Source: Minisyncoccota bacterium (lineage in GTDB: Bacteria > Patescibacteriota > Minisyncoccia > Phycocordibacterales > CAIZLB01). Taken from it: DNA of 50,787 nt. Made by a program: the position numbers and the translations under genes. Under the pieces are notes generated by a model. It was not told the DNA's origin. It was given only the letters and a program-made list of their open reading frames with translations, and searched no databases. The stretch covers positions 1-50,787 of the forward strand of contig JAGOSK010000004.1 of the NCBI GenBank assembly GCA_018062305.1. The letters are read 5' to 3'. Of the stretch, positions 49,048 through 50,787 are shown one piece after another (position 1 is the stretch's first letter; each line of letters starts with the position of its first letter).

Positions 49048-49074
49048 GTGTGACTACTGACGCGCTAGTCACAC
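49048..49074 (-). terminator. Hairpin at the end of the VOC gene
   Basis: GTGTGACTA (49048-49056) pairs with TAGTCACAC (49066-49074). It touches the stop codon of the gene (49074-49076); the 3' side on the minus strand is AATTTAAT, only moderately T-rich. Confidence 0.6.
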
Positions 49075-49430
49075 TAAGCTAACTTATGAATCATAACCGT
49101 ATTCCCCTCTGAATCTTGTATCTGCGCCATCTGGCATTTAGGAAATTTCATTGGCTCCATAAAAATTTTCACCCCAGCTGATTTAAGCTTCTCCATCATT
49201 GCATCAAAATCTTCTACCTCAAATGCAAGTACTGGACCTTGTCCTGACGGCTCCCATCCATCCATTTTACCAAGACTCAAAGCGGAGTCACCAATAAGAT
49301 ACTCAGCCCAACTGTCACCAGCAGAATCAAACTCTGGATTTGGAGTAAGCTCAAATATTTCCTCATAAAACTTTTTTGCACGAGCCATATCTTTTACTGG
49401 GTATGTAATGAAACCGATTGATTTGATCAT
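49074..49430 (-). CDS. VOC superfamily (glyoxalase/bleomycin-resistance fold) protein
   Basis: 118 residues, one VOC module: IKSIGFITYPVKDMARAKKFYEEIFEL at the start, VLAFEVEDFDAMMEKLKSAGVKI in the middle and QIQDSEGNTVMIHKLA at the end. VOC proteins bind metal and act as lyases, dioxygenases or drug-binding proteins; the substrate is not predictable. It starts 24 nt after the Fic gene stop and probably shares its operator-controlled promoter. Confidence 0.88.
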   Translation of the reverse strand: MIKSIGFITYPVKDMARAKKFYEEIFELTPNPEFDSAGDSWAEYLIGDSALSLGKMDGWEPSGQGPVLAFEVEDFDAMMEKLKSAGVKIFMEPMKFPKCQMAQIQDSEGNTVMIHKLA

Positions 49431-49454: not shown

Positions 49455-50525
49455 TTAAATTAAATAGTTTTTGCTTGAATAGATGTACTGATCAAAGAAA
49501 ATATCTCTAAACGGTACGAGCGAATTAAGCTCATAAAATACCAAGATAGCTTCTCGATACTCCTCCTCATCAACAATTCTATATGAGAGGGGCGCTAGAT
49601 TGTGTGCAAGGAGAATCGCATTTCCAACAAGGCGAGATGTTCTCTTATTCCCATCCTCAAATGGCTGAATATAAGATATTCCTAAAATAATCATCAAGGC
49701 TTTACTGTATCCATCTTTCATCCGAGATACCATTTCACATAATTTTAGAAGAGCCTCTTTTATTTGAAAGCTGTTATCAAGTGGTCTATATCTAGAACCA
49801 AGAATACCCACCGGTTTTGATCGTATATCGTGAGTTATACCAAGACCTTCAACTAGTATCTTATGGATTGTCTCGATTTTGGATACTGTTATGTCGGCAA
49901 ATGATTCCCTATTTTGATAAATAAAATCAAAAGCCTTTTTATGATTCAAAATCATAGTTGCTTCATCTTTTGTCTTACCTACGGCTTCAATTCCATCTTT
50001 AATCAATTTTTCTGTATCGAGAAGTGTATATGTATTCCCTTCTATCTGCGAAGACTTCCACGACAGTTCAATAATAAATCTTTCTAACTCTTTTTTATGT
50101 AATGTATCTGATACGTCTGTATTTTTTACATGATATTCTTTCGTGGTTGAATCTAGTATGTGTATATGGGATGCTGAAAATATACTTTCTGGAATACTTT
50201 CAAAGAGTGAAAAATTAAAACTTTCGAGACTGATTCTCTTTTTAACATCATCCTCACAGTATACCCGAGGATTAATTTGGAAATATAATCTACCAGTATT
50301 TGAAATAGAATACTTAACAGAACGACCTTTGCCAGTTTTGATTAAAGTTTGAGCTTCTGTAAGCTTTGATAATAGTCTCTTAATTGTAATCAGTGAGGTA
50401 TCGTGAGTTTGGCTTATTGTTTTATATAATTCTGACGCAGAAATACTATCGCCAGCCATAAAACAAGCAAGTGTAGTCCTTTCTATATTGTCCTTATATG
50501 TATCTTTATTTTTTGTCTCTTTCAT
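49455..50525 (-). CDS. Fic-domain protein with winged-helix N-terminus and altered catalytic motif
   Basis: 356 residues. An N-terminal winged helix (about 15-85; SASELYKTISQTHDTSLITIKRLLSKL), then a Fic domain (about 145-340). An inhibitory-helix motif S158-S-Q-I-E162-G163 is intact. The Fic core reads IQPFEDGNKRTSR: the usual catalytic His of HPFxDGN is Gln287 (codon CAG), while the phosphate-binding FEDGNKR is kept. Fic enzymes transfer AMP or other groups to Tyr/Ser/Thr; loss of the His usually removes that activity. The winged helix and the upstream four-site operator suggest a DNA-binding regulator. It is first in an operon with the VOC gene. Confidence 0.88.
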   Translation of the reverse strand: MKETKNKDTYKDNIERTTLACFMAGDSISASELYKTISQTHDTSLITIKRLLSKLTEAQTLIKTGKGRSVKYSISNTGRLYFQINPRVYCEDDVKKRISLESFNFSLFESIPESIFSASHIHILDSTTKEYHVKNTDVSDTLHKKELERFIIELSWKSSQIEGNTYTLLDTEKLIKDGIEAVGKTKDEATMILNHKKAFDFIYQNRESFADITVSKIETIHKILVEGLGITHDIRSKPVGILGSRYRPLDNSFQIKEALLKLCEMVSRMKDGYSKALMIILGISYIQPFEDGNKRTSRLVGNAILLAHNLAPLSYRIVDEEEYREAILVFYELNSLVPFRDIFFDQYIYSSKNYLI

Positions 50526-50548
50526 TTCAGTTAAAGTGGTTAAACAAT

Positions 50549-50615
50549 AATCGTATCAAAATAGCCATTTAATCGTATCATAATGATACGATTATGCAAG
50601 GTTTTTGATACGATT
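50549..50615. promoter_or_regulatory. Four-site symmetrical operator upstream of the Fic gene
   Basis: AATCGTATCA at 50549-50558 and 50571-50580, its complement TGATACGATT at 50584-50593 and 50606-50615. All four copies are identical. Spacing is 22 bp within each pair, and the two inner sites are 3 bp apart, so the whole array is a palindrome about 50582. A candidate promoter (TTGCAT 50594-50599, TACGAT 50572-50577) lies inside. The last site overlaps the stop of the upstream ATPase gene. Confidence 0.85.
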
Positions 50616-50787
50616 AAGATCTTGAAAACACCTTCCTCACCTCATCTACCACAACCACACTAGACGCAACCGCTAACACAACTATCCAGTCCCCTCCGTT
50701 CAACGGAACAGTCTTCAAGATAAATTGTAATGGCGCCCAATATACTGCCAATAGTTGTAGTACAAGAATAATACCAGTAGACCAAAG
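50614..50787 (-). CDS. Cation-transporting P-type ATPase, C-terminal 57 residues (cut by window edge)
   Basis: The last 57 codons of a gene that enters from the right edge. They show two membrane helices (WSTGIILVLQLLAVYWAPL and DWIVVLAVASSVVVVDEV) and the end EVRKVFSRS. The pattern of LQ..AVY.P.LQ..F.T.PL...DW, ending in E(I/V)RK, is characteristic of the C-terminal membrane region of P2-type Ca2+ or related cation ATPases. The catalytic domains lie outside the window, so the ion cannot be assigned. Its stop codon overlaps the outermost site of the Fic operator. Confidence 0.72.
   Translation of the reverse strand, partial: LWSTGIILVLQLLAVYWAPLQFILKTVPLNGGDWIVVLAVASSVVVVDEVRKVFSRS

Follow-up and report, generated by a model that had tools for sequence, protein, structure and literature searches.

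A Gln-type Fic protein of Patescibacteria with a predicted N-terminal winged helix and a conserved operator at its own promoter

Introduction

Among the Fic/Doc proteins, Khater and Mohanty described in 2015 a bacterial clade, D2, which is characterized by the motif Qx[FY]x[DE][GV]NKR; its members are 'usually single-domain' and of unknown function, and the authors argued that the clade may not be dead (PMC4454073). A Fic domain combined with a helix-turn-helix (HTH) is found in CccR from Yersinia pseudotuberculosis. This protein represses its own promoter via two inverted 10-bp boxes with a 26-bp spacer; it AMPylates FtsZ, is secreted, and loses its activity when the catalytic His is changed to Ala (PMC9755527). 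CbFic2 from Coxiella and SoFic from Shewanella are class II Fic proteins with a winged helix, and CbFic2 binds DNA (PMC10628234).

Here we analyzed a stretch of 50,787 nucleotides (the window), contig 30 of a genome of 778 kb with relatives in the Patescibacteria. It encodes a 356-aa Fic protein with a Gln in place of the catalytic His. The replacement is a published trait of clade D2 (PMC4454073), with which the protein also shares the motif, and is therefore no novelty of this gene. The protein differs from the description of the clade in that it has an N-terminal winged helix, which is missed by Pfam, and a conserved self-operator. The winged helix in the model departs from 'usually single-domain', although 'usually' is no strict criterion. 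The conserved self-operator appears to be the new element for this orphan Fic clade.

CccR is the nearest precedent for an autorepressing Fic-HTH protein. In both cases Fic and HTH (predicted as the DNA-binding domain here) occur in one protein and inverted 10-bp boxes are found at the gene's own promoter. There is also a notable parallel between the 26-bp spacer of CccR and the 25-bp spacer in each of the inverted pairs 2+4 and 1+3 of the window operator (sites are numbered 1 to 4 along the direction of transcription). However, CccR has its HTH at the C-terminus and a catalytic His, whereas the order of the domains is reversed here and the His is a Gln; and CccR has two boxes, whereas three or four sites are arranged here on a 22/13/22 grid. 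CbFic2 and SoFic differ by a C-terminal winged helix, an active catalytic motif and the absence of a known specific operator. FICD/HYPE is the best structural match and has the same class II inhibitory helix, but it contains the catalytic His, GNGR and TPR where the present protein has Gln, GNKR and a winged helix.

Results

The gene encodes a class II Fic protein without the catalytic His

The features of the locus are listed in Table 1. A Pfam search of the 356-aa ORF recognizes the Fic domain alone (PF02661, E 1.9e-12, 48.3 bits, cut-off 24); a bit score above the gathering cut-off, together with the Fic fold, places the protein in the Fic/Fido domain family. No match of the N-terminal residues 4-74 in Pfam or NCBIfam reached its cut-off. 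A winged helix is predicted in this part with high confidence; it comprises helices at residues 30-37 and 45-57 and strands at residues 61-64 and 71-74. The AlphaFold2 model of the protein has a mean pLDDT of 90.3. Its best structural match is FICD (Z 25.4, 234 residues, 2.4 A), followed by other Fic proteins including BT_2513, SoFic and CbFic2; CbFic2 and SoFic (PDB 8cil and 3eqx) give Z scores of 20.9 and 22.7, against 25 for FICD. According to the model, the fold is that of a class II Fic protein, and the winged helix sits at the opposite end compared with SoFic, CbFic2 and CccR.

The sequence SSQIEGN (residues 158-164) provides the helix with the pattern [ST]xxxE[GN], N-terminal to the core, which defines class II. 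The core motif is IQPFEDGNKR, in which Gln287 is encoded by CAG (49665-49667). The catalytic His of the AMPylating motif HPFx[DE]GN[GK]R is hence absent, and the second Gly of the catalytic motif is a Lys (GNKR). A preliminary description of the locus had reported this core with its Gln as well as a retained SSQIEG motif and winged helix, and the present data agree with it in all of these points.

Table 1. Features of the Fic locus in the window
Feature	Position	Strand	Basis or conservation
Winged-helix and Fic (Gln-type) protein, 356 aa	49455..50525	-	ORF, Pfam Fic match, AlphaFold2 model
Predicted N-terminal winged helix-turn-helix, residues 4-74	50304..50516	-	Predicted secondary structure
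Predicted recognition helix, residues 45-57 (S44-L-I46-T-I-K49-R50)	50355..50393	-	Predicted; operator position 4 varies most closely with 46, 49 and 45
Class II inhibitory motif SSQIEG, residues 158-163	50037..50054	-	S158, E162 and G163 the same in all 110 relatives
Fic active-site motif QPFEDGNKRTSR, residues 287-298, Gln replacing catalytic His	49632..49667	-	Q287 in 110/110
Predicted -35 element TTGCAT	50594..50599	-	TTG directly preceding site 2 in 76-84% (76 three-site loci)
Predicted -10 hexamer within site 3 (extended -10 TGATACGAT)	50572-50577	-	Consensus
Operator half-site 1 (outermost, upstream of -35)	50606..50615	-	Exact; in 15/83 distinct word-carrying relatives
Operator half-site 2 (within -35/-10 spacer)	50584..50593	-	Exact; conserved
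Operator half-site 3 (- strand reads TGATACGAT)	50571..50580	+	Exact; in 90/91 loci
Operator half-site 4 (transcribed leader)	50549..50558	+	Exact

The Gln is fixed across the family

An unbiased search of a phylum sample identified relatives in 34 of 380 genomes, which is a patchy occurrence. A scan of GTDB contigs, biased in that QPFEDGNK was among its seeds, yielded 80 further loci. The resulting set contains 110 Patescibacteria loci with 102 distinct proteins (36-54% identity), mostly from metagenome bins. Position 287 is Gln in all 110 loci, that is, in all 102 distinct proteins. The residues D291, G292, N293, K294, R295 and R298 are each present in 110/110 and E162 is likewise invariant. 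The D2 motif Qx[FY]x[DE][GV]NKR is matched by each of the 102 distinct proteins. Full-length relatives on Bacteroides and proteobacterial plasmids, with 28-41% identity, also carry the Gln in those examined, and a His at the catalytic position was not found among the full-length relatives examined.

The preliminary description had left room for homologues with His, which would have pointed to a sequencing error. Because Gln is fixed and His relatives did not emerge, Gln287 is not a sequencing error; a recent mutation is ruled out on the same grounds. The earlier statement that one base change explains the Gln is correct as arithmetic (CAG vs CAT or CAC), but misleading as an explanation because the residue is fixed in the family. 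Since Gln occurs throughout the Patescibacteria loci as well as in the relatives examined from Bacteroides and proteobacteria, the His-to-Gln change is ancient and selected.

Two of the four operator sites overlap the predicted promoter

Upstream of the gene are four exact copies of AATCGTATCA, which are symmetric about 50582 with offsets of 22, 13 and 22 (Table 1). The base composition predicts about 0.18 exact sites in the whole window and about 0.0002 per 67 bp. Four identical 10-bp sites, in two 22-bp pairs mirrored about 50582 and covering a promoter candidate, had been noted beforehand; the copies are exact, and the predicted promoter overlaps sites 2 and 3. These two sites, inverted with a 3-bp spacer, form the most constant pair. 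When the similarity between sites 2 and 4 (35-bp offset) was compared with that between sites 2 and 3, it was lower in 21 loci and higher in 28, so that either pair may be the one gripped by a single dimer. Most relatives have three sites rather than four. The four-site operator is compatible with a tetramer on one DNA face. Among the papers listed for the operator word, none linked it to a bacterial regulator; all of those listed were unrelated human-cell studies.

The gene upstream (50616-50787, - strand), in which the contig ends, encodes 57 last residues that resemble a P-type cation ATPase at its C-terminus; the stop codon of this gene and operator site 1 overlap.

The promoter was assigned by consensus alone. 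As an average of 76 three-site loci, the consensus TTGnnn-N17-TACGAT overlaps sites 2 and 3; the -35/-10 spacer is 16 bp in the window, compared with the family average of 17 bp. Site 3 drifts from C to T towards TATGAT in 10/83 cases, compared with 2/159 for sites 2 and 4 (p 0.0005), and in the lineage with the word TGAGCGATAA site 3 is TGAGCTATAA with a T after it, which makes TATAAT. In 39/76 loci a potential start codon is placed immediately after site 4 (distance 0). The predicted promoter seems, as judged from its letters, to be built out of operator words. Since site 2 fills the promoter spacer and site 3 is the extended -10, binding should shut the promoter off; it is conceivable, though less likely, that the operator-bound protein activates its own gene instead.

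The operator geometry is conserved while the word changes

In almost all of the aligned upstream regions, sites 2 and 3 are inverted at offset 13, and site 4 repeats site 3 in direct orientation with an offset of 22; site 1 occurs 22 bp before site 2 in some loci. We also used a motif-free test, which scores the mutual similarity on the 22/13/22 grid with the 99% level of dinucleotide shuffles as threshold. This level is exceeded by 96 of the 110 loci and by 88 of the 102 distinct upstream regions. The remaining 14 distinct regions mostly fit if the spacing is shifted by 1-3 bp or by one full turn; spacings of 21 and 23 bp are used in several lineages, and one of 32 bp in locus L023.

The operator word itself depends on the lineage. 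It is TGATACGATT in most and TGAGCGATAA in the Peregrinibacteria/Peribacteria group, and further lineages have TGTCGGGATA, TGTCGCAATA, TGAGACAATA, TGCAACAATA and others. A tree based solely on the Fic domain requires the word to have changed at least 20 times. An operator that coevolves with its protein is expected to look like this, with the geometry kept while the word changes, and we read the fixed geometry and the changing letters as the probable signature of a coevolving DNA-binding protein and operator. Of 60 residues tested, 46 and 49, followed by 45, show the closest relation to operator position 4; they are located in the predicted recognition helix. The raw covariation between this helix and the operator is 19/24 vs 2/78. 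After correction for the tree the trend persists, with the same direction in an average of 2.3 of four independent pairs, but with four well-supported independent changes it does not reach significance.

Seven of eight proteobacterial relatives tested have 3-5 copies of a repeated word of their own upstream, so that self-operators reach beyond the Patescibacteria.

The sites mark the gene's own promoter

A genome scan for exact copies of AATCGTATCA returned a fifth copy in the window (35765) and three elsewhere, all four inside ORFs. The composite palindrome, with up to 2 mismatches, was found in the 34 genomes with the gene 17 times at fic and 6 times elsewhere, the latter about as often as in the reversed control (4); these counts give no hint of a wider regulon, which we reject as a candidate. 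Direct pairs elsewhere were moderately above the reversed control (19 vs 11), all of them at 2-3 mismatches. No genome was found to contain a second full operator. A regulon of single half-sites or weak sites could escape these scans. The preliminary description had suggested a Fic-derived transcription regulator. The conserved architecture speaks for the part of this claim that concerns a DNA-binding regulator at its own operator, but not for control of other genes: the only promoter that the sites mark is that of the gene itself, and the protein therefore looks like an autorepressor.

We found neither a conserved neighbor or partner gene nor an adjacent antitoxin gene, as in FicTA or Phd-Doc, among ORFs of >80 residues in 109 loci; a very small partner could escape, because only ORFs above this size were examined. 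Carriage by viruses or phages was rejected, since the matches were distant and partial. The gene at 49074-49430 (- strand) encodes a protein of 118 aa, presumably glyoxalase/VOC-like as named from its sequence. It begins 24 bp after fic, has the same orientation and may be cotranscribed with it.

Discussion

It is rather likely, given the sequence evidence, that the locus encodes a solitary, self-repressing DNA-binding Fic protein, in which the Fic domain is a pseudoenzyme sensor or a dose-limited altered enzyme. We infer binding, repression and cooperativity, as well as ligand and effector role, as follows. The N-terminal winged helix would recognize the copies of the 10-bp word, which is TGATACGATT in the window, and cooperating dimers would probably line up on one face of the DNA. 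With the words at the -35/-10 spacer, at the extended -10, in the leader and, in the window, before the -35 as well, the bound protein would block RNA polymerase and so hold its own expression low. The C-terminal domain, a predicted class II Fic fold, retains both the SxxxEG inhibitory helix and the residues DGNKR..R that bind phosphate. As the pocket is kept, but with an invariant Gln for His and a Lys for the second Gly, a pseudoenzyme or an altered enzyme is most likely. The former would bind a nucleotide or another phosphate ligand and feed back on DNA binding; the latter would have an altered chemistry and a dose in need of a limit. These are two versions of the same explanation, which differ in the role of the Fic domain.

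It is quite conceivable, albeit short of probable, that the protein is a self-limited enzyme or toxin with an altered chemistry, like Doc or AnkX, in which autorepression by the winged helix holds the amount at a harmless level and so replaces the antitoxin gene. The gene is solitary without a conserved neighbor and patchy in its occurrence; several of the proteobacterial and Bacteroides relatives adjoin integrases, conjugation or toxin-antitoxin genes; and the self-inhibitory motif is retained. Furthermore, CccR is enzyme and autorepressor at once, and the authors of clade D2 saw reasons for possible activity. However, no member has kept the general base, and in CccR the His-to-Ala exchange is sufficient to abolish activity.

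The version with a one-component sensor, in which the Gln-type pocket binds a nucleotide or diphosphate and thereby alters the affinity for DNA, is one that we consider plausible but less than probable; it narrows to self-regulation the suggestion of the preliminary description that the pocket may sense a nucleotide rather than AMPylate. The phosphate-binding residues D291, N293, R295 and R298 and the inhibitory Glu162 are invariant in spite of the loss of the catalytic His, and among the related folds with solved structures, many bind ATP, ADP or farnesyl diphosphate. Because the genome scans revealed no other target promoter, which counts against a sensor, it would control itself alone. The extension of this idea to the whole Gln-type clade, as widespread one-component regulators in which the Fic pocket became a ligand sensor controlling a multi-site operator with the extended -10 as core word, strikes us as doubtful. 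If it were true, an entire Fic branch, one that is prominent in the Candidate Phyla Radiation, would have been repurposed from enzyme to transcription factor.

We regard it as very improbable that the repeats act at the RNA level, as a leader element or attenuator, instead of as a DNA operator. Sites 2 and 3 could form a hairpin and site 4 is within the leader, but only sites 3 and 4 are near or in the predicted transcript, where they cannot pair with each other because they are direct repeats; site 2 is upstream of the -10, and the spacing is kept in whole helical turns and not as the pairing of a stem. A dying Fic toxin, resulting from plain loss of the His in one gene or from a sequencing error, would agree with a CAG one base away from CAC or CAT, but it deserves practically no credence since the family alignment, with Gln in every locus of the Patescibacteria, in the other phyla examined as well, and with the rest of the pocket strongly conserved, already refutes it.

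The self-operator gives the Gln-type Fic proteins, an orphan clade since 2015, a first testable role and a DNA probe. The locus marks a whole family of Fic proteins, self-repressing in our reading, in a huge group of tiny uncultured bacteria. For the Patescibacteria, where transcriptional control has been little studied, it also adds a regulator together with its operator, a rare case with good support, and about a hundred naturally varied pairs of protein and operator can be used for studies of recognition.

Some individual loci deserve mention. The Fic proteins of L075, L099, L103 and L104 closely match those of other loci of the set, while the bins are labelled Ignavibacteria, Methylomirabilis, Deltaproteobacteria and Verrucomicrobia; these contigs look misbinned. 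L174, from a Bacteroides finegoldii plasmid, has lost the first half of the winged helix, and the protein appears truncated. On a Sulfitobacter plasmid (L176, 32% identity) the Fic gene is preceded by repeats of AATCGTTTCA, one base from the CPR word. L023 has four exact sites with 32 instead of 22 bp in each outer pair; this corresponds to one extra helical turn and provides a natural test of helical phasing.
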